Source of the DNA: a candidate division WOR-1 bacterium RIFOXYB2_FULL_37_13 | GTDB lineage: Bacteria > Margulisbacteria > WOR-1 > XYC2-FULL-46-14 > XYC2-FULL-37-10 | Reading direction: 5' to 3' | NCBI GenBank assembly: GCA_001771535.1 | Contig: MEUB01000029.1 | Location: 1 to 37,436 of the forward strand | Length of the DNA stretch: 37,436 nucleotides | Part shown: positions 4,789-33,949 of the stretch, one piece after another | Position numbering within the stretch: the stretch's first letter is position 1 | Layout: each line of letters begins with the position of its first letter | Notes under the pieces: model-generated | The model's database searches: none | What the model was told of the DNA's origin: nothing | The model's input: the letters and a program-made list of their open reading frames with translations, nothing else | Made by a program: the position numbers and the translations under genes

Positions 4789-4899
4789 CGTTTTGTTTTT
4801 TTATTACTTTCTTATTTGCGAAATTTCCTCTATTTTTTAACGATATATATGCAGGAAATTGATTTCTCTAGAAATAAATAAAACGGAGGAAAATATTTT

Positions 4900-6447
4900 A
4901 TGACAATTAATCCAACTTCAGGGGCAAAAACAAGAGCTGAAACAGTAGGGGGCCCAAGTTTAAGGGTGAAAATACCATTATGGAGAAACATGTTAGCTAT
5001 GTGTAAGATGGCTAAGCCTTCGGATATTTTTCCTCTTGATGATGTTCAACAAGAAGGAATGTTACCTCAATTGAAATCCGACTGCCGCGCACTAAAACTG
5101 GAATACCACCCTGATAGAATAGAAGGAGAGGGAGAATTTGTAGCTACACTTAAAGAACTTGGCGGTCAAATTTGTGGCGAAATAGATAGGCTTTATGGTT
5201 TGAGAAAAGCAGAAATTGAAAAAAAGTTGGAACCGGCAGGCTCACCTCATCAAGCCCAAGCGCCTAGAAGAGGAGATCAGGGCAAAAAATTAGTCAGAGA
5301 TTACCAAAAACCGCCCAGCTGGACAGAAGAAGAATGGCAAACTCTTCTTAAAGCACATCCATTGTTGGAGACAAGCAGCCCTCTTAGTGATGAAAAATTT
5401 TCTCAAGTAATAGAACGCCTTAAGCCTCGCAAGCTTCAAGATTGCCCAAAACCTCCAAATTGGGAAAATTGGGAATGGACAAAGTTTATTAATGAACATA
5501 AGGATTGGTACTTCTCTCATGGCAAACCTTGGGATAATGATGCATTTTGGAATAATATAGAAGCTAATAGGCCGATGCCAACAAAGAGAGCCCTTCATTT
5601 CTTTAATCTGCCTGACGGAGTTGAAAAGTGGGAGTGGCAGGATATTCTAGAGAGAAACCCGCATACAGAATTTCCTGTTGAACCTTTTAACAAAGATAAA
5701 TTTATTGCTTGGGTTGAAAGTCAAAGGCCATATCCTTATGAGAAAAATGCGATTACTTCTGACAAAATGTATGAATTGGAGAGGAGGCAAGTTAGCGATT
5801 TAGACTATTCTGGAAGGAAGGAGCTCCTTTTTGATAGAAAATGCTCTAAACATAAAAAAGAAAGGAATGGCTCCCCTGCCGTTTTGTGGATACCTAAAGA
5901 AAATATAGCTGAGTTGATAACAAAACATATAACAGCTGAGCAACAGGATGCTTTGTTTAATCTTTTAGGTTTAGAAAAACCCACACCAGCTTGGTATGAG
6001 CTACTTCAGCCTGAGTGGAAAACTGTATATACTGCGATGATGTTGGCTAAAGAGGGAAAGCATCCGGATATTTCTTTGTCACCTTTGTACTCTTACGGGA
6101 ATAGTAAATATGAAAATTGCCCAAGTGTTAGTTGGGGGTATAGATGTGATGCATGTTTTGAGGGGACCAACATTGTCTGGAAATTTCAGAGAAAAATAGA
6201 GCAAAGTGGGGCATATACTCAGCCGCCATTTTTAGTGACATCTCCCGCGCTTGTTGAGCATTCGTTTGGAAATCATGGGTCTCTAGCTGTTTTTGAAATT
6301 GATATGCCAGGCTATAGTTGGTATCCTTCACGACCGGATGTATATGGAGCTGAAGTTGATAAAAGTGCAATTTTAGTATTTTTTGGTGGCAAGAAAAATG
6401 ATGCGAAAATTATAAACCCAATGTTAAAAAAAAGGCTTATTAAATGA
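4900..6447 (+). CDS. Orphan J-domain protein with three W/P-rich repeats
   Basis: No known full-length family is recognised. Residues about 41-105 look like a divergent J-domain: a helix ending RALKLEYHPDR with the HPD tripeptide at 70-72, then a helix with the GEIDRLYGL pattern. HPD motifs stimulate Hsp70 ATPase, so a DnaK partner is plausible. After a charged linker come three tandem units of about 45 residues (133-177, 181-226, 232-279), each with a P-rich start, W..(W)EW, a hydrophobic helix, then F..(W)(I/V)E..(R/K)P. The C-terminal half (about 320-515) is unassigned and has a CDAC pair (416-419). There is no signal peptide. The first 20 residues are rich in Thr, Ser and Gly. The ATG follows GGAGGA (4885-4890). 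The gene is monocistronic. Confidence 0.85.
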   Translation: MTINPTSGAKTRAETVGGPSLRVKIPLWRNMLAMCKMAKPSDIFPLDDVQQEGMLPQLKSDCRALKLEYHPDRIEGEGEFVATLKELGGQICGEIDRLYGLRKAEIEKKLEPAGSPHQAQAPRRGDQGKKLVRDYQKPPSWTEEEWQTLLKAHPLLETSSPLSDEKFSQVIERLKPRKLQDCPKPPNWENWEWTKFINEHKDWYFSHGKPWDNDAFWNNIEANRPMPTKRALHFFNLPDGVEKWEWQDILERNPHTEFPVEPFNKDKFIAWVESQRPYPYEKNAITSDKMYELERRQVSDLDYSGRKELLFDRKCSKHKKERNGSPAVLWIPKENIAELITKHITAEQQDALFNLLGLEKPTPAWYELLQPEWKTVYTAMMLAKEGKHPDISLSPLYSYGNSKYENCPSVSWGYRCDACFEGTNIVWKFQRKIEQSGAYTQPPFLVTSPALVEHSFGNHGSLAVFEIDMPGYSWYPSRPDVYGAEVDKSAILVFFGGKKNDAKIINPMLKKRLIK

Positions 6448-6537: not shown

Positions 6538-6591
6538 ATGACCAAAACTATAATAAAAAAAGGCTTTTTAATTGAAATGCTTTTAACATGA
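6538..6591 (+). CDS. Putative 17-aa leader peptide, coupled to the binding-protein gene
   Basis: A short ORF encoding MTKTIIKKGFLIEMLLT. It is preceded by AGGAG (6526-6530) at a good spacing, while the following binding-protein gene has no Shine-Dalgarno of its own. Its TGA overlaps the next ATG in the arrangement ATGA (6588-6591), so terminating ribosomes could restart on the downstream gene. It lies about 20 nt downstream of the predicted transcription start. It has no detectable homology by eye. It could be a regulatory leader peptide or simply a translational coupler. Sequence evidence for the ORF and its site is clear; translation is inferred. Confidence 0.5.
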   Translation: MTKTIIKKGFLIEMLLT

Positions 6592-10400: not shown

Positions 10401-10408
10401 GATTTTTT
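10389..10408 (+). terminator. Hairpin plus T-run at the end of the repeat array
   Basis: ATCGCC-TTT-GGCGAT (10389-10403) followed by TTTTT forms a compact intrinsic-terminator-like structure. It would end transcription from the four-helix-bundle gene, and it abuts the stop codon of the convergent HExxH-motif gene (10407-10409). Confidence 0.6.
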
Positions 10409-11153
10409 ATATATGGAGAAAACTATTTAATTCATCGCAAGCAAGATCAATATTAAATTCTTTGATTGTTTTATTTTTTTGTCTATCTAAATTGTGAATT
10501 GATTGTAGTTGTGTTTTATATTTCTTTAATATAGCAACTGTTTGCTCTATAACATTATATTGGTTATAAGGATTATGTTTTACCAGCAACTTATATTCTT
10601 CAATGTTTTTAATACTAGCTTTATCATGAAGAAAAGCTTTTATTGAATCATCCCCAAATAAAGTGTTACCTGTTCGCCATGCCGATAATTCGGCATCTAA
10701 TTCCGTAGGAACAGTTATGTTAATTTTTGGTTCTTCAATTTCAATCCTGCCAAGATTATTATACAAAAAACAACCTGCCCAGGATAAGATAAAACTCTTT
10801 ACATCCTGCTCAAGATGACGCAATTCGTGTGCAAAATTCCATGAAAATTCAATATCATCAGCAAGAGAAACCCTTTTAGAAAACCAAATAAAATGAGTAT
10901 ATTTTTTTGATTTTATTATTTTTAATATATCATCTGGACTACATTCTTCAATCTCACCAAGCCGCACATTCATATGTAAACCATAGTTTTTGCTCCATAG
11001 ATCATTTGGATGACTCTTATAGTCTTCATCGTCAAATAGCAAAACAACACCTGAATCAGGCATATTAAAGTTAATCATTATTTTTTCGAGCAACTCTTTT
11101 TTCTCTTTTGACAGATCTAATTTATATATTATTTCGTTTTTTTCATCCCACAT
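10407..11153 (-). CDS. Putative HExxH zinc metallopeptidase-like protein
   Basis: The 248-residue protein is not assigned to a named family. The clear feature is HELRH at 109-113 within WNFAHELRHLEQD, followed about 40 residues later by TELDAELSAWR (150-160). This HExxH-plus-downstream-Glu arrangement is that of gluzincin-type zinc proteases, as in ImmA/IrrE-like and related accessory proteins. No signal peptide or membrane helix is seen, so it is probably cytoplasmic. The C-terminal quarter is helical and Lys-rich. It is very AT-rich, sits between copies of a dispersed repeat next to a tRNA cluster, and so is likely an acquired gene. A possible -10 (TTAAAT after TGT) lies six bases before the ATG. 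Catalytic function is inferred from the motif only. Confidence 0.7.
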   Translation of the reverse strand: MWDEKNEIIYKLDLSKEKKELLEKIMINFNMPDSGVVLLFDDEDYKSHPNDLWSKNYGLHMNVRLGEIEECSPDDILKIIKSKKYTHFIWFSKRVSLADDIEFSWNFAHELRHLEQDVKSFILSWAGCFLYNNLGRIEIEEPKINITVPTELDAELSAWRTGNTLFGDDSIKAFLHDKASIKNIEEYKLLVKHNPYNQYNVIEQTVAILKKYKTQLQSIHNLDRQKNKTIKEFNIDLACDELNSFLHI

Positions 11154-13036: not shown

Positions 13037-14857
13037 ATGGGAACATCAGTTGTACCAGTCGGATGTGGGTTTTCAGCTCCTGTCACAAAAAAGGATGATT
13101 TAACAACAGCGCCAGAAGTTGTAGAAGAAGCAAATAGCAATTCCTGCCAGGAAATTTATATAAACCCGCCAATTTGTTGTAATGATATTGATGTGTCTGA
13201 TGCTAATGCTGTTGAATCTAAGCTATATGATGAAATTGCGGAATTGAAAACTTTGTTATCAGCCCCCTCCCAAGATAATGAGATATCATCAAGTGCCGAA
13301 AGAATTGCTGAATTAATCACTCTTATTTATTGTGCGAAAGGAATGGATAAAGCTTGTGAAGCGTTTTCTCTCCTGTATAGCGATGGTTATAATTATATCA
13401 AGGCTCATTCTTTTGTAGAAAATGAAGGGGCAACTCCTCTGGTTTTTGAAAAGCTTGTAAGCAAAAATCCGGAAATAGCCACTGCCATTGCCATAGGATT
13501 TTATTCCGATCAATCCTATGTAATAAAAGAGGTTTTTATCACTAAATCAATGTTTGCTGCATCTCTCTCTCCAAAAGAAAGCGCGGATTTGATAAGTGAA
13601 ATATTTAAAAGAGATAAAGATTTGGCAATTGATATATTTTTATTGATCGACGATCGTAAGAATTTTTTTACAAAGCCCATTCTTGCATCTATTAAAGATC
13701 GTGAGCTTCTGGCATATCTTTTTTTAAATCCTTTACTTCTTGAAGATATAATTACGGTTTTAAATTTAAATAGCACCCAAACAGCAGATTTGGTTGTATC
13801 GGCTTATGATATAGCAATAAAAGAAGATGGCGATTATGCAGAAGTCAGAATCGACAAATTGTTTTCAGCTCTTACTCGCATAGATGACAAGGGTTTGAAA
13901 TTAAAAACATTTCAGATTCTTATTAATAAATACCCAAAACAGGCAATTGGCCTTTTGACTTTTGGGGCTATTAAGGAGAAAAATATTTCAAATGAATTAG
14001 CAGAAAAACTATCTCAAAGGTTTAAAACCAGTGGTTTGACGATCCCTGCTATGCTTGCCTCATTTGTATTATTTATTTATGACGAATTTGGTCAAAAAGA
14101 AGCAGGAAAGGTGCTTAATAACTATTGTCAGGGGAATAAACTTGCAGTAAGAAAAATGTTTGACTTACTCTTTTCTCAAGATCGAGAAACAACAAAAAAA
14201 CTTTTAGCTGAAGAGATTTATTCAGCCTATCTATCATATGTTGCGCAAGCATGTGAAGATGCTGGCATTTCAGATTACGAAATAAGTCAACTATTAGTTG
14301 ACGCTTATAAAAACAGAAAAAACGGCGGTGAAATAGCTGGCAATATTTTTTATTCGCTTAAAGATAAAGATATAAAGAAAACCATTGCCCTTTTTCTCTT
14401 TCAATTCAATTCCAAATATGCGGCTCCTATTATGACTTTCGGAGAAATTACAGAGGAAGAGTTTACTGGAAAGGAAATAGATGAAATTGCAGAAAAAAAC
14501 TCCTCATGGCAAGAGGCAATAGCTTTGATGATTTTGAAGACTTATGAAAAAAATAATAAGACTGGAATATCTGTATTTAATGGCATAATACTCCGTGATC
14601 ATTTTTACCACAAAGATAAATGGGCAATTTTGTATGAAATTGCGAAACAAGAAAGAAGTGTTTATGCTGGCATTACTTCATGTGATTATTGTGACCAAGT
14701 TCTTTGTAATATTATAAGTTTTCCTTTTGAAAACGAAAGCACTCCAGATGAAAAAGAAAAAGCAAACCTAATATTATTAGCTAGGCCTTATTTGATGCAT
14801 AATATTAGCGATAGGGTAAAGGCCTTGATTGATCCAACGCATCCAATTCCGCAATAA
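13037..14857 (+). CDS. Orphan all-helical repeat protein, 606 aa
   Basis: Not recognised. From about residue 75 to the end the sequence looks entirely helical, in repeated pairs of amphipathic helices of about 35-40 residues (for example SADLISEIFKRDKDLAIDIF and KLKTFQILINKYPKQAIGLL). This is reminiscent of HEAT/ARM-type or other solenoid folds. The first 40 residues are polar and rich in Ser, Thr, Val and Pro, with no hydrophobic signal peptide. A CDYCDQVLC cluster lies near residue 555. A strong CGGAGGA site precedes the ATG. The 3' end overlaps the convergent ABC-F gene by 53 bp. It resembles the window's other orphan proteins in its N-terminal composition and monocistronic layout. Function unknown. 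Confidence 0.8.
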   Translation: MGTSVVPVGCGFSAPVTKKDDLTTAPEVVEEANSNSCQEIYINPPICCNDIDVSDANAVESKLYDEIAELKTLLSAPSQDNEISSSAERIAELITLIYCAKGMDKACEAFSLLYSDGYNYIKAHSFVENEGATPLVFEKLVSKNPEIATAIAIGFYSDQSYVIKEVFITKSMFAASLSPKESADLISEIFKRDKDLAIDIFLLIDDRKNFFTKPILASIKDRELLAYLFLNPLLLEDIITVLNLNSTQTADLVVSAYDIAIKEDGDYAEVRIDKLFSALTRIDDKGLKLKTFQILINKYPKQAIGLLTFGAIKEKNISNELAEKLSQRFKTSGLTIPAMLASFVLFIYDEFGQKEAGKVLNNYCQGNKLAVRKMFDLLFSQDRETTKKLLAEEIYSAYLSYVAQACEDAGISDYEISQLLVDAYKNRKNGGEIAGNIFYSLKDKDIKKTIALFLFQFNSKYAAPIMTFGEITEEEFTGKEIDEIAEKNSSWQEAIALMILKTYEKNNKTGISVFNGIILRDHFYHKDKWAILYEIAKQERSVYAGITSCDYCDQVLCNIISFPFENESTPDEKEKANLILLARPYLMHNISDRVKALIDPTHPIPQ

Positions 14858-16616
14858 GGATTTCAAGCTCTTTATAACCGTTATCAACATCCTGCTGATG
14901 TTTGTGCGATTTGATCTGAAGCTGAGAAATCTCTTCACCTTTTAATTTTGCAGAATTATTGGCTATTTCAAGGTTAACTGCTTCAAGTGCCGTCTCATCT
15001 TTATCAATCTTTTTTTCAACCTCTTTTACTTTCGCAAGCAGTGCTTTGTGCTTTTTGTTGTATTCTTCCTCTAAATCTTTCTGGCTTTTCTGCTCAGATT
15101 TTTTCATTTTAACTTTTTTAGGTTTTTTTATTTCCTGTTCCCATCCAACTCTGTCCAAAAAGTCCTGATATGTTCCGTCAAAAACAAAAACGCGATCTTC
15201 ATTGAATACTATAAGCTTTCTAGCTAAATGATGCAGAAACATTTCGCTATGTGTTACGATAATTACAGCTCCAGGGAATTCATCAAGCGCTGTAATCATA
15301 GAATCGCACGATTCTACATCTAAATGGTTAGTTGGTTCGTCAAGCAGTAGCATATTGGTAGGGGAGAGAAGGATTTTCCCAAGCGATACCCTGCTTTTTT
15401 CGCCGCCCGAGAGTACTGATATCTTTTTAAGCGCCGCATCGCCAGAAAACATCATGGCGCCGCAGGTTTTTCGAATGTCCGTATAAGTCATATCCGGTCT
15501 TAATGCGGAAAATTCTTGTTCTATTGTAAGTGTTGGCTTGAGCCGCTCGATATTTGTTTGTCCGAAATAGCCAATTTTGCAATTTGGATGGCTTGTTATT
15601 TTGCCTTCATTTGGGTCAAGTTCCCCTGCCAGCAACCTAAGCAGGGTGGATTTTCCCTTGCCATTTTTTCCGATAACGCAGATCCTATCATTTTTGCCGA
15701 TATAAAGAGACAGTTTTTCTATTAGAGTTCGTTCGGGGGAATAACCGAAAGATATTTCCTCAATATTCATAAGATAGTTGGCTTCAAATTCTAAGGAGTT
15801 AAACCTAAACCCCAAATCAGTAACCTTTCTAAGTTCTTCTTTTTTGCCCATTTTTTCCAACGCTTTGATCCGTGATTGAACAAGGCTTGCGCGAGCTGCC
15901 TGGGCACGAAATCTGTTAATGAACTCTATGGTTTCTTGCCGTTTTTTGTCTTCTTTCCGGCGAGTCTTTTCATAAACTTCTTCTTCCAATGCGATCTGTT
16001 CAAAAAGTTTTATTGTGTCTCCTTCTATTTTCTTGATTTTTTTACGATGTATACCCATTGTATGAGTTGTAATGCTGTTCATGAAATCGCGTTCGTGTGT
16101 GATGATTATCAGTTCATTTTCCCATCGTTGCAGGAAGCGGGTTAGCCATCGTATAGATATAATATCCAGATAGTTTGTAGGTTCATCAAGAAGCAAAAGA
16201 TGTGGTTCTGCAAGAAGTACTTTAGCTAGATTCAATCTAACTTGAAAGCCACCTGAAAATTCCAAAGGAGATTTATAAAACTCGTCTTCAGAAAAGCCCA
16301 AACCACTTAAAATCTTTTCAGCTTTCCAGATTTGATCTTTGTCATCCTCTTTGAGTCCAAGACAAGCCTCTTGTAGTACTGTGTCTTCTGTAAATTGCAA
16401 ATGCTGTTTAAGATATCCGATGGTGTAATTTTTTGGAATAGAGATGTTTCCTTCATCTGTGTGTATTTCACCTGTTATAAGCTTAAACAGAGTAGTTTTA
16501 CCCGAACCATTACGACCAACAAGCCCAATACGTTCGCCACTGTGTATGTTGAAACTTATATCATCAAGCAGTTCTTCCCCGCAGAAGGATAATGATAGAT
16601 TGTTTATTTGTAGCAT
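14805..16616 (-). CDS. ABC-F family ATPase
   Basis: A soluble tandem-ABC protein of the ribosome-associated ABC-F group (EttA/Uup/YheS/YdiF relatives), which act on translating ribosomes or, in some subfamilies, confer antibiotic resistance by target protection. The 603 residues contain two ATPase domains: Walker A GRNGSGKT (about 37-44), signature FSGGFQVRL, Walker B LLLLDEPTNYLD; then a charged linker (about 210-275), Walker A GKNGKGKS, signature LSGGEKSRV and LLLDEPTNHLD. The C-terminal 80 residues form a Lys/Glu-rich coiled coil, as in Uup-like members. There are no membrane segments. The first signature has Phe in place of Leu and lacks the Glu after GG. The subfamily is uncertain. The 3' end overlaps the convergent orphan gene by 53 bp. 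Confidence 0.94.
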   Translation of the reverse strand: MLQINNLSLSFCGEELLDDISFNIHSGERIGLVGRNGSGKTTLFKLITGEIHTDEGNISIPKNYTIGYLKQHLQFTEDTVLQEACLGLKEDDKDQIWKAEKILSGLGFSEDEFYKSPLEFSGGFQVRLNLAKVLLAEPHLLLLDEPTNYLDIISIRWLTRFLQRWENELIIITHERDFMNSITTHTMGIHRKKIKKIEGDTIKLFEQIALEEEVYEKTRRKEDKKRQETIEFINRFRAQAARASLVQSRIKALEKMGKKEELRKVTDLGFRFNSLEFEANYLMNIEEISFGYSPERTLIEKLSLYIGKNDRICVIGKNGKGKSTLLRLLAGELDPNEGKITSHPNCKIGYFGQTNIERLKPTLTIEQEFSALRPDMTYTDIRKTCGAMMFSGDAALKKISVLSGGEKSRVSLGKILLSPTNMLLLDEPTNHLDVESCDSMITALDEFPGAVIIVTHSEMFLHHLARKLIVFNEDRVFVFDGTYQDFLDRVGWEQEIKKPKKVKMKKSEQKSQKDLEEEYNKKHKALLAKVKEVEKKIDKDETALEAVNLEIANNSAKLKGEEISQLQIKSHKHQQDVDNGYKELEILIAELDALDQSRPLPYR

Positions 16617-19158: not shown

Positions 19159-20295
19159 CTATAATGTCGGAATCTTCATGGGCAGATAAGGATAGTTTGA
19201 ATACATAGATGACCATCCCCGCTGCAGTATTGTATGATCTACGACTTGCGAAAGATAGATATAGGGTCTTCCTTCTTTTCTTGCGCTATTCATTGCTTCT
19301 TTTAAATCTTTTGTTTCAAAATAATGCTTTGTATCACAAACAGGTTGTGTGGAATATTTAGGATATTCTGTACATTCTCCAAGGGTAATATATCGTTCAT
19401 CAACTAAAAACGATAAAAGCTCTTCTACTTCTTGCGTGGTCGCATAACTGTTTATAGCAAGCCCGACTTCAAACGAGTCTCCCGTGCTTCTTACTACCTT
19501 ATAAACAATTAACGGCATTATTCCATCGGGAGTGTTTGTTTGGTTTAAAAATTCATTTGAATGGAAAAGAACCCCTTTTAGCCGAAAAAGCTCCTTTTCT
19601 GCGGTGATGACATTTTTCTCAAGCTCTCTTATTCTTGTATATGTTTCTCTAATATATAATTGAATTTCGTTTGTGAAATCCGAACAGAAAAATTCAATTT
19701 CTTTGAGTTGTTCTCGCGCAGATTTAAGCGCTTCTTTTATTTGCCCTGTTTTATTGAGCTCGGCTCTAATGGCTGCGAGAGTTTGTGGAGAAATGGGATT
19801 GTTTGTTGCTTTTGAATTTAAAGTTTCAAAAAAACGGGTTGCTTCTCCCATCGTATCGTTTAGCTTTTTTGACAAGGCATCAAAAATATCTTTTATCGGG
19901 ATATTTTTTTCTGTTATATCCAAAGCTTTTTGCACCATGTCAAGCCTAAGTGAGATGGCGGCGATTAAGTTTTTATCTTCAAGGGCAAGTTGTCGATTAA
20001 ACCTTCTTATCTTATCTATGATTTCTTTTGCTTTTTTTATGTATTCTTTTGTTTTGCCGACTTTTAATAGATCTTCAAAAACCAAAGAAGGTTTGTTGGC
20101 TTTTAATTTGCCAGTTGAAGAATCCGGAATTTCCAGACTTAAATCATCAACCGCGTCTTCCAAATCATTAACTGCTTCATCCAAAGAATCAAATAAATCG
20201 TTTAATGCCTTTGAATATGAAGGACTCTCGGCTTGCGGCAGCGCGGCCGGTTTTTGAGACTGTGAAGAATAGCCTGTTCCTGTTATTTCAACCAT
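19159..20295 (-). CDS. Orphan coiled-coil protein, 378 aa
   Basis: Not recognised. Residues 1-28 are polar, rich in Ser, Gly, Gln and Pro. Residues about 28-55 are an acidic heptad-like helix (LFDSLDEAVNDLEDAVDDL). A long, mainly helical region (about 70-255) with coiled-coil character follows. The C-terminal third is mixed alpha/beta, with PLIVYKVVRSTGDSFEVGLA and ending SNYPYLPMKIPTL. There is no signal peptide or membrane segment. The gene is convergent with pyrR (22-bp gap, no terminator seen). No clear Shine-Dalgarno is present; ACGAG lies about 10 bases upstream. It belongs to the set of lineage-restricted orphan proteins in this window. Function unknown. Confidence 0.8.
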   Translation of the reverse strand: MVEITGTGYSSQSQKPAALPQAESPSYSKALNDLFDSLDEAVNDLEDAVDDLSLEIPDSSTGKLKANKPSLVFEDLLKVGKTKEYIKKAKEIIDKIRRFNRQLALEDKNLIAAISLRLDMVQKALDITEKNIPIKDIFDALSKKLNDTMGEATRFFETLNSKATNNPISPQTLAAIRAELNKTGQIKEALKSAREQLKEIEFFCSDFTNEIQLYIRETYTRIRELEKNVITAEKELFRLKGVLFHSNEFLNQTNTPDGIMPLIVYKVVRSTGDSFEVGLAINSYATTQEVEELLSFLVDERYITLGECTEYPKYSTQPVCDTKHYFETKDLKEAMNSARKEGRPYIYLSQVVDHTILQRGWSSMYSNYPYLPMKIPTL

Positions 20296-26223: not shown

Positions 26224-27308
26224 TATAGTTCTTTCCGTAGTTCTCCAAACTTTTTCAGAAGCTCTTTTTGTTCGTTTGTCAGGGCTTTTGGCGTTTCAAC
26301 CTCTACCACAACAATAAAATCTCCACGCCTGCGGCTGCCGACATAGTGCATCCCTTTTTCTTGAAATCTGAACATTGAGCCTGTTTGTGTCCCCTGAGGT
26401 ATTTTTAGTATAGCCTTGCCGTCTATTGTTTTAACTTCAACTTCACTTCCAAGCGCCGCCTGCGCGAATGAGATGTTTTTTTTCTGATATAAATCAGCTC
26501 CTTCACGCTCAAAAATAGGGCTGGTTTTGACATTGATAAATACATATAAGTCTCCGGGTGCTCCCCCTTTTATTCCTGCGTCTCCTGCTCCCCCAACTCT
26601 TAAACGATATCCGGATTCTATTCCTTGCGGCATTTTTATTTTGATTTTGTGTTTTGATCTTTCACGGCCTGATCCCGAGCATATATGACAGGGTGATGAG
26701 TTTATTGTTCCTGTGCCGTGGCATGTCGGACATGTTGATACTTGAGTAAAGGCGCCAAGAGGAGTCCTTTGTGTCCTTCTTACCTGACCTGCTCCGTTGC
26801 ATGATGAGCATTTTGATGTGGTAGTTCCAGCCTTTACTCCACTTCCTTTGCATATGTGGCAGGCTACGAGATGTGTTATCTCGATCTCTTTTTCTACCCC
26901 TAAGAAGGCTTCTTCAAGTGTTATTTCAATATCATATCTCAAATCCGCTCCATCTTGTCTTCCTGAATGGCTTGTTGTTCTTCCTCTGGTTCCTCCAAAA
27001 AACATATCAAAAATATCGCCAAATCCGTTGAAGTCCGAAAATCCGCCGCCAACATCAAAGTCTGAAAAGCCTCCAGCCCCTCCGGCATCAAACCCTCCCG
27101 AGCCAAATTGGTCATAATGCTGGCGTTTTTGCGGATCACCCAAAACCTGATAAGCTTCGTTTATTTCTTTGAATTTTTCCGCGGACCCCGATTCTTTATT
27201 GACATCAGGATGATGTTTGCGGGCAGCACTTCGGAATGCTTTTTTTATTTCATCCTGTGATGCGTTTTTTGAAACGCCAAGGAGGTTATAATAATCTTTG
27301 TTGGCCAT
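26223..27308 (-). CDS. dnaJ: Chaperone protein DnaJ
   Basis: Type I Hsp40 that delivers unfolded clients to DnaK and stimulates its ATPase. The 361 residues contain a J-domain with HPD at 33-35, a Gly/Phe-rich region (about 69-106), four zinc-binding CxxCxGxG motifs (Cys 150/153, 167/170, 193/196, 207/210) and the C-terminal substrate domains. I chose the ATG at 27308 (MANKDYYNLLGV); a longer in-frame reading from 27467 adds 53 unrelated residues that cross the neighbouring promoter. The ATG follows an extended -10 by seven bases, with no Shine-Dalgarno. rsmE is coupled downstream by TAATG. No CIRCE element is seen and dnaK is not in the window. Confidence 0.96.
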   Translation of the reverse strand: MANKDYYNLLGVSKNASQDEIKKAFRSAARKHHPDVNKESGSAEKFKEINEAYQVLGDPQKRQHYDQFGSGGFDAGGAGGFSDFDVGGGFSDFNGFGDIFDMFFGGTRGRTTSHSGRQDGADLRYDIEITLEEAFLGVEKEIEITHLVACHICKGSGVKAGTTTSKCSSCNGAGQVRRTQRTPLGAFTQVSTCPTCHGTGTINSSPCHICSGSGRERSKHKIKIKMPQGIESGYRLRVGGAGDAGIKGGAPGDLYVFINVKTSPIFEREGADLYQKKNISFAQAALGSEVEVKTIDGKAILKIPQGTQTGSMFRFQEKGMHYVGSRRRGDFIVVVEVETPKALTNEQKELLKKFGELRKEL

Positions 27309-27315
27309 ATATTTT

Positions 27316-27344
27316 ATTCTATCAAATAGCCGGTTTTTAAGCAA
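27316..27344 (-). promoter_or_regulatory. dnaJ promoter, extended -10
   Basis: Minus strand: TTGCTT (27339-27344), 17-nt spacer, TAGAAT (27316-27321) with upstream TGA. The -10 ends seven bases before the ATG at 27308, so the dnaJ-rsmE mRNA is predicted leaderless. Confidence 0.6.
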
Positions 27345-27370
27345 TTTTACATTGCAGGCAGAAATTTCCC

Positions 27371-27398
27371 TTGACAGGACGTTCTCATCTTGTATAAT
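27371..27398 (+). promoter_or_regulatory. Consensus sigma-70 promoter of the zinc-ribbon gene
   Basis: Perfect TTGACA (27371-27376) and perfect TATAAT (27393-27398) with a 16-nt spacer. It is the only promoter in the window with both hexamers perfect. The predicted start is near 27405, giving a leader of about 60 nt with GGGGGAG before the ATG. Confidence 0.8.
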
Positions 27399-27466
27399 CC
27401 ATTTTAAATATAGTAGTTCCTTTGTGAGTCTTAAGTAATTTTTAAATAAAAAGGGGGAGAGAAACA

Positions 27467-27613
27467 ATGGCAGAAGTAAAAGGGTACTGTGTAAAATGCA
27501 AAGAGAAACGTGTTATGAAGGAAGCTAAAGCAGTTACATTGAAGAACGGAAGAAAAGCCACAAAAGGAGAATGTCCAACTTGCGGCACCAAAATGTTTAA
27601 AATAGGCGGCTAA
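27467..27613 (+). CDS. 48-aa zinc-ribbon protein (DUF5679-like)
   Basis: A small protein starting MAEVKGYCVKCKEKRVMKEA and ending KGECPTCGTKMFKIGG. The two pairs CVKC (8-11) and CPTC (36-39) form a predicted zinc ribbon, and the pattern matches the DUF5679 family of tiny proteins. Function is unknown; nucleic-acid binding is plausible for the fold. The ATG follows GGGGGAG (27453-27458) at normal spacing. It has the window's strongest promoter and is followed by a very long RNA hairpin with a T-run, so it is probably an abundant, separately terminated mRNA. Confidence 0.85.
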   Translation: MAEVKGYCVKCKEKRVMKEAKAVTLKNGRKATKGECPTCGTKMFKIGG

Positions 27614-31654: not shown

Positions 31655-33796
31655 CTAATGTTCTTTATTTTGGAGTAGAGAGTTAAGACGGCTTTTTCCT
31701 TCTTTCTTTATATATGTAAACCAGTGAGTTGTTTTTTCAAACCCTTTCCCTATTGATAGATCTCTTAATTTGCCAAGATCTTTTTTATCGATCAAAATAT
31801 CCATTAACCTGTGTATTGCGGAAATAACACAATCTTCATCACTAGGAGAGGCAATCTGTTGAAAAGGATGAAAAATATTCTGTTTGATAAACCACTCTAA
31901 AGCTTGTATTTCTGCATCAGTACCTGTAAGTCTTTCTATGGTTTCCATTAACAGTTGGTTTGGTTCTTTTTTTGCATTATTTAAAGAGATTACAAGATTC
32001 ATAAGCTCCAATAAATGTTCATTAGGATCATTTTTATAATGTTCAATTAAGCTTAAAATAACATTATCTCTAAAAAATTCATGAATTTCGCTTCCGAGCT
32101 CAGACTCTATTTTTTGACCTAACGCATCAATGTCCTCATCTTCTAATTTTGGGATCAATTTGCATAATGTTTCTTTTGTGATATCAGCCGTGAAATAAGA
32201 TAGCCCCATTATTCTTAAAAAATTCACCCAATCTTTTTGTCTGCTATAATATTCCGCTAAACATTCACAAATTTTATTTCCTACAGTTTCAAACTCAGGA
32301 TTAATTGGAAGAGTTCCTCTATTAAATAAACTCCTTATTGCTTGAAAATTTATTTCTTCTAAAACACCTTCTAATGCCTCACAATTTCTTTCTGCTAGAA
32401 TTCCTATTGCGGCAGATTTTATGTCTGTCAGAGAATAACCATATTTAGGGATACTGGATTTTATTATTTCCAAAATGCCATCATCAGTTAAGGAATGACC
32501 GTTTTGGACTAAAGCCTTAATGGATGCTTCTGCGTTAGGGTAACAAATTGCTATTTCCCATAAATTTTCCCATTCATTACTACTATCATAATAAGCTATT
32601 GCTAATTTGCCAGCAGATTCTCTTGTTGATGACGGATAATCGTCATTCAGTGCTATATTTTTTATGGCTTCCCAATCAGAGTCTGCTTCATATCTTGCAA
32701 CTAACGTATTCCCCGCATGTTCTCTTATTGCAAGGAGAATTCTTTTATCTCTTGCAACCTCATCAACAAATCTTATCCCCCCATTTAATCTTTCTGCCGC
32801 CGCAACTAAAGCTTCTCCAAGAGGATTTTTATAAAGATCAATAGATTCGCCAAATAAAGTAACTAAAATATATAGATTGTGAAAATCTAAAAATGGATGT
32901 GGGCTTTCTTGTGTGGCAAGATCTTCTAGTTGAACTAAAAGCCCCCCACCTTTATCTCCTCTTCTCAAAAATTTTGTTACCGATGCTCTTTTTTCTAATT
33001 GATTCAAGCAAACCATGGCTCTCAATCGCTCAACAAAAAAAGCCCCTTCATTTTCCATAATTTCCGTATAAAATTTTACTCTAGCTTTTTGATCAACTGG
33101 GGCAACATCACTTCTTAACAGATGTCCTTTTAACATAAATTCGGTTGACCCTAAATACTCCTCTCTCATCGCGCAAAGACCAATTAAAACTTCTATCCAT
33201 TTATTAGAAACTGCGAGAGATTTTACCCCTTCCTGCAAAATTGTGTAAGCCGCTTCTTTTGTTTCGAGGTTTCTGCTGTTAACCATAGTTTCAAGCATTG
33301 GAACAAGTGTTTCTGAATGAAGCAGAGCGCGAAGAACATTTTCAAGAAATTGGTCATAAACTACAAAATCTACGCTTCTATCGTCAAATTCTTTTGCTAC
33401 TTGGACAAGAAAAGTTTGAAATTCTTGGTTGTCAAGGGCATGTAAAATATTCCATGCGTTAACTGGCTCCAATCCAGCAAAGATTTGTCTCAATTCAGAT
33501 ATTTCGCGGGGCACTCCAGAAATCAAACAACACGCGGAAGCATAATCTTCTTTGGCGGCAAGAAGCCGTCCCTCTCTTTCTAATCTCTCTGCCACAGGCA
33601 CAATGTCAAGCCTTTGTCTTTCCGATGTATCTACTACTCTGGCAAAGTCGGTTGGGGTAACTTCTCTAGTAGAAAGAAATCTATCTCTTGCAATAAATCT
33701 TTGCGGCGTGATCACAGTAGAGGCCGATCTTGGTCTTGAGTTTGATCTTGATCTTGATATAGATCTTGATATAGATTCACCAACATGTTTTGCCAT
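31655..33796 (-). CDS. Orphan helical-repeat protein with RS-rich N-terminus, 713 aa
   Basis: Not recognised. After the start comes an arginine-serine stretch (residues 8-24, ESISRSISRSRSNSRPRSAS), then a linker, and from about residue 60 a long all-helical region with repeated helix pairs (for example LETMVNSRNLETKEAAYTIL; ILLAIREHAGNTLVARY), suggesting a HEAT/ARM-like solenoid. No signal peptide or membrane segment is seen. The start is uncertain: I favour the ATG at 33796 with a weak AGAGAG upstream; a GTG at 33868 would add 24 residues (no ribosome-binding site). The gene is convergent with hisI. It resembles the 606-aa orphan at 13037 in being a long helical-repeat protein. Function unknown. 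Confidence 0.78.
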   Translation of the reverse strand: MAKHVGESISRSISRSRSNSRPRSASTVITPQRFIARDRFLSTREVTPTDFARVVDTSERQRLDIVPVAERLEREGRLLAAKEDYASACCLISGVPREISELRQIFAGLEPVNAWNILHALDNQEFQTFLVQVAKEFDDRSVDFVVYDQFLENVLRALLHSETLVPMLETMVNSRNLETKEAAYTILQEGVKSLAVSNKWIEVLIGLCAMREEYLGSTEFMLKGHLLRSDVAPVDQKARVKFYTEIMENEGAFFVERLRAMVCLNQLEKRASVTKFLRRGDKGGGLLVQLEDLATQESPHPFLDFHNLYILVTLFGESIDLYKNPLGEALVAAAERLNGGIRFVDEVARDKRILLAIREHAGNTLVARYEADSDWEAIKNIALNDDYPSSTRESAGKLAIAYYDSSNEWENLWEIAICYPNAEASIKALVQNGHSLTDDGILEIIKSSIPKYGYSLTDIKSAAIGILAERNCEALEGVLEEINFQAIRSLFNRGTLPINPEFETVGNKICECLAEYYSRQKDWVNFLRIMGLSYFTADITKETLCKLIPKLEDEDIDALGQKIESELGSEIHEFFRDNVILSLIEHYKNDPNEHLLELMNLVISLNNAKKEPNQLLMETIERLTGTDAEIQALEWFIKQNIFHPFQQIASPSDEDCVISAIHRLMDILIDKKDLGKLRDLSIGKGFEKTTHWFTYIKKEGKSRLNSLLQNKEH

Positions 33797-33949
33797 AAAT
33801 GACTCTCTTTTTTTAAGTTTCTCTGCATTCTCCACACATATATCGTCATTTTTAAAGTTAAAATTCACCCAAGAAAAACGAAAAACGATATAATTGAATC
33901 AATATATAAATATCTTCACTTGGCGAATCTCCATTGTCCTGTTTTGTAT

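Follow-up and report, generated by a model that had tools for sequence, protein, structure and literature searches.

A rare WOR-1 protein with a divergent J-domain, tandem W/P repeats and a C-terminal domain shared with a single homologue: a probable class C co-chaperone of DnaK

Class C J-domain proteins are by definition those in which a J-domain is combined with other domains of varied kinds, and in HscB, DjlA and AtcJ, as in the class generally, it is the part not shared with DnaJ that selects the partner. TopJ, a J-protein of the Mycoplasma terminal organelle, has aromatic- and proline-rich sequence following its J-domain, and in DNAJC24/Dph4 the J-domain is followed by a Cys-containing metal site, the CSL zinc domain, which has four cysteines. 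In AtcJ, an extension outside the J-domain binds AtcC (PMC6715715).

The protein described here, P0001, is encoded in a window of 37,436 nucleotides (the whole stretch of DNA that was analysed) from the candidate division WOR-1 bacterium RIFOXYB2_FULL_37_13, whose genome assembly is 1.79 Mb and 97% complete. No entry covering the whole protein was found in Pfam, NCBIfam, PHROGs, PADLOC or the PDB sequences, and its features are as follows.

4885..4889, + strand: GGAGG ribosome-binding site, 10 nt upstream of the ATG (from the sequence)
4900..6447, + strand: P0001 gene, J-domain protein of 515 aa (open reading frame, native codon usage, homologue in another genus)
4981..5229, + strand: divergent J-domain region, residues 28-110 (profile, profile-profile and AlphaFold)
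5107..5115, + strand: HPD tripeptide, residues 70-72 (aligns with HPD 69-71 of the homologue P0002)
5305..5445, + strand: repeat unit 1, residues 136-182 (shuffle test, shared columns; two short helices predicted at low confidence)
5446..5598, + strand: repeat unit 2, residues 183-233 (same evidence, same low-confidence helices)
5599..5751, + strand: repeat unit 3, residues 234-284 (same evidence, same low-confidence helices)
5974..6405, + strand: C-terminal domain common to P0001 and P0002, residues 359-502 (local score 122 against a shuffle mean of 30, z 17.8)
6145..6156, + strand: CxxC, C416 and C419, kept in the homologue (sequence comparison)
6259..6276, + strand: HxxxxH, H454 and H459, kept in the homologue (sequence comparison)

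The open reading frame begins with ATG and its codon usage is native: the synonymous codon score is -1.01, compared with -1.00 to -1.18 for 15 neighbouring genes, -1.18 to -1.28 for the other five frames at the same place and -1.26 for random synonymous choice. The GC content of the gene is also native.

Like HscB, DjlA and AtcJ, P0001 carries a J-domain joined to parts that are foreign to DnaJ. Classes A and B are marked by a G/F region, DnaJ_C beta domains and CxxCxGxG zinc repeats; with no match to PF01556 or PF00684, P0001 falls outside them and within class C. The first-pass annotation, which knew of no DnaJ class with this architecture, therefore overstated the case. P0001 differs from HscB, DjlA and AtcJ in sharing no extra domain with them, in lacking an operon with a client, in the far greater divergence of its J-domain and in the presence of a repeat insert. 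It has no NCBIfam match, and of the HscB model NF003449, whose protein also has a C-terminal IscU-binding domain, P0002 matches the J part with only 12.9 bits. The aromatic- and proline-rich sequence after the J-domain recalls TopJ, but the repeats of P0001 are not glycine-rich EAGR boxes, and the TopJ models NF037946 and TIGR03835 do not match it. DNAJC24/Dph4 (PDB 2l6l; 1wjz) is among the closest solved J-domains by the family profile (E 0.25 and 0.05), and the order of a J-domain and then a Cys-containing metal site may be common to both; P0001, however, has C2H2-like ligands at most, in a C-terminal domain without a sequence match.

The host encodes the machinery with which such a protein could work. 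A grpE-dnaK pair lies on one contig (C7:44292-46590) and includes the only full-length DnaK of the genome, and a canonical DnaJ with both PF01556 and PF00684 is encoded at 26226-27467 of the window. The host also encodes another class C protein (L027:40-1677, contig C58), 545 aa long, with a C-terminal J-domain (485-540) and an unassigned, helical-looking N-terminal part.

In our reading, to which we give a probability of roughly 0.6, P0001 acts as a co-chaperone of class C with a divergent J-domain, and takes DnaK to a client or a location that its remaining domains select. Starting from what can be read in the sequences, namely J-domain homology, a common C-terminal domain, repeats that are absent from P0002 and the presence of DnaK and GrpE, we infer that the HPD hairpin at the N terminus would dock onto the cell's one full-length DnaK and set off hydrolysis of ATP, that the C-terminal domain, perhaps zinc-binding, would hold one client or site, and that the W/P repeats between the two domains, which may form three pairs of short helices, would either add to client binding or serve as a spacer. 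By analogy with AtcJ and HscB, in which the parts outside the J-domain select the partner, it is most likely the C-terminal domain that would direct DnaK, the repeats providing a further binding surface or a spacer.

The J-domain itself is well supported, although not by the usual Pfam threshold: P0001 scores 11.5 bits against PF00226, for which the curated cut-off is 27.8, and our claim of homology is based instead on profile-profile comparison and on blind lists of matches. Profile A3, built from the two members P0001 and P0002 and searched without any J-domain information, hit 18 weak places beyond the family itself across the 74 phylum genomes; of these, 15 were read, and every one was a J-domain, aligned at the corresponding place mostly in DnaJ and otherwise in CbpA-like or other J-proteins. 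Against PDB sequences, 18 of 19 weak matches of the family profile were J-domain proteins (three of them taken to be so by name), the exception being a circadian regulator. Comparison by hhalign with 13 J-domains of the phylum gave a probability of 92% (E 6e-7), and a J-domain HMM placed both P0002 and P0001 above 1000 of 1000 shuffles. In an AlphaFold model made from the two sequences, helix II (51-68) and helix III (79-110) flank the HPD (block pLDDT 72-89), as in the J-domain of DnaJ (PF00226). The proposal in the first-pass annotation of a J-domain with HPD at residues 70-72 is thus borne out both in position and in the predicted helix-HPD-helix hairpin. Foldseek returned nothing at E<=0.001 for the model, and its top five included weak J-domain matches to DNAJB8 (second) and HSJ1a (fifth). 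Helix I is short, and neither the canonical YxxLgv of helix I nor the QKRxx motif of helix IV is evident in the region.

P0002, the sole relative found, is a protein of 272 aa encoded by the WOR-1 bacterium RIFOXYB2_FULL_46_45 (L005:7923-8738). The two are reciprocal best matches with no other match at E<=0.001, so that the family is present in 2 of 74 genomes of the phylum, and no further homologue emerged from scanning 85k genomes and viral contigs for patterns, which reaches close relatives only, or from tblastn on phages and plasmids. Their N-terminal regions, which share an SGAK motif, IF, HPD and Y..RK, are about 30% identical (local score 48 against a shuffle mean of 25, z about 5), a comparison made on hand-cut segments because mechanical full-length pair alignments misalign the J region. 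The C-terminal domains are 31% identical over about 145 residues. Residues 131-290 of P0001, which hold the repeats, find no match in P0002 (z 1.0; 162 of 1000 shuffles were equally good), and P0002 passes almost directly from its J-like region to the C-terminal domain. As judged from these alignments, the core of the family is J-domain plus C-terminal domain, with repeats that differ between lineages; they were either inserted in the P0001 lineage or lost in the other, two sequences giving no direction. The homologue with a different repeat number that the first-pass annotation had called for is accordingly P0002, with zero.

Within the C-terminal domain, the only cysteines and histidines that align with P0002 are C416, C419, H454 and H459. 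The first of these pairs is the CDAC noticed earlier in the C-terminal half, and the CxxC and HxxxxH together suggest a possible zinc or other metal site. The domain has no library match, and its AlphaFold model is uninformative (pLDDT 34).

The tandem triplication between the two domains stands up to shuffling: the three pairs of units score 55, 49 and 61 where shuffled sequences average 24, 23 and 29 (z 6.5, 5.7 and 5.3), and 0, 4 and 0 of 2000 shuffles do as well. Its period is 47-53 aa rather than the 45 or so first estimated, and the P, EW, F and E positions first proposed recur among the columns common to all three units, which include P, EW, P, F, E and P. Tryptophan makes up 6.9% of residues 131-290 compared with 2.0% of the remainder of the protein. 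Searched alone, as had been advised, the repeat profile matched no known domain and gave no convincing match in the PDB; across the phylum genomes only P0001 carries the repeats (next best E 0.02). Structure prediction of the repeats, also advised, gave two ten-residue helices per unit (143-152/164-174, 190-199/213-222 and 243-252/265-274; block pLDDT 34-70), a low-confidence hint of a two-helix structure. A likeness to W..LL..QPQFADKCDW repeats was considered and rejected, as the example L065 ranked among the shuffles with an hhalign probability of 1%.

These results bear on how DnaK might be directed. Because P0002 keeps the C-terminal domain without the repeats, client recruitment can be ascribed to this domain with no less justification than to the repeats, the part that the first-pass annotation proposed for it. 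A bolder reading, which we consider unlikely, sees in the W/P unit a helical-hairpin repeat of a new kind, inserted into a J-domain protein as a client-binding array that retargets DnaK in a new way, and in the C-terminal domain a new metal-binding fold.

The P0001 gene has ftsK on one side and btuFCD on the other, and it is missing from the ftsK-btu place in all six relatives examined. In four of these (G001, G002, G003 and G008) ftsK is directly followed by btuF-btuC-btuD, and in G006 by btuC; in G005 a different ORF, of 277 aa (L063, 324-1154), occupies the ftsK-btuF gap, which thus tolerates insertions. The P0002 gene is flanked by trpB and trpA and lies on the opposite strand. Upstream of btuF no riboswitch was found, of the B12 type or any other, and the neighbours of P0001 include no operon partner that would name a client.

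Several other features of the window may be recorded. A 23-nt direct repeat, AT-rich and 91% identical, has one copy at the stop codon of the P0001 gene (6427-6449) and the other just upstream of btuF (6555-6577); it may be due to chance. Long ORFs of 606, 737 and 378 aa (13037-14857, +; 31655-33868, -; 19159-20295, -) have no Pfam match and a GC3 below that of most neighbours, and the two longest resemble alpha-helical repeat proteins by eye. An ORF of 248 aa (10407-11153, -; GC 29%), likewise without a Pfam match, contains HELRHLEQD, which resembles the HExxH motif of zinc peptidases. The ORF at 14805-16616 (-) encodes an ATPase of the ABC-F type, in which an ABC_tran_Xtn linker accompanies two ABC_tran domains, and is a candidate for an ordinary translation factor.

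Sporadic occurrence in 2 of 74 genomes, as an orphan family at unrelated places (the ftsK/btuF gap and, on the other strand, trpB/trpA), is what might be expected if the gene were carried by a mobile or selfish element, for instance in a defence or anti-defence role, with a J-domain that draws in the DnaK of the host. We find this improbable, since phage, plasmid and viral collections and PADLOC gave no match, no phage relation, integrase (among the neighbouring ORFs identified by family) or flanking repeat of note is apparent around the gene, and its GC and codon usage are native. A different doubt concerns the J-like segment, which could be a degenerate, non-stimulating J-domain kept as a structural or docking module in a protein that acts through its C-terminal domain without DnaK. 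With a PF00226 score so far under the cut-off, some J-domain determinants are lost and the protein may stimulate DnaK weakly or not at all; a helix I and helix IV consensus that is not evident, and stronger conservation in the C-terminal domain (z 17.8) than in the J region (z about 5), point the same way. Yet the HPD and the preceding Y are kept in both members in spite of only about 30% N-terminal identity, and we regard degeneration as rather unlikely. Every library comparison of P0001 alone is sub-threshold, as it would be if the HPD and the repeats had arisen by chance in an orphan protein of unrelated kind, but J-domains are what the profile tests and the profile-profile tests both point to, and the repeats are significant by shuffling, which makes coincidence very improbable.

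P0001 is real, rare and without a named family, a variant within a class whose defining property is diversity. Beyond its contrast with P0002, it is one orphan protein in the sparsely sampled and little-studied phylum Margulisbacteria. The class C J-domain proteins of bacteria are nevertheless a poorly explored reservoir of DnaK targeting, and the P0001/P0002 pair, having the same J-domain and C-terminal core with and without repeats, permits a direct domain-swap test of what the repeats contribute.
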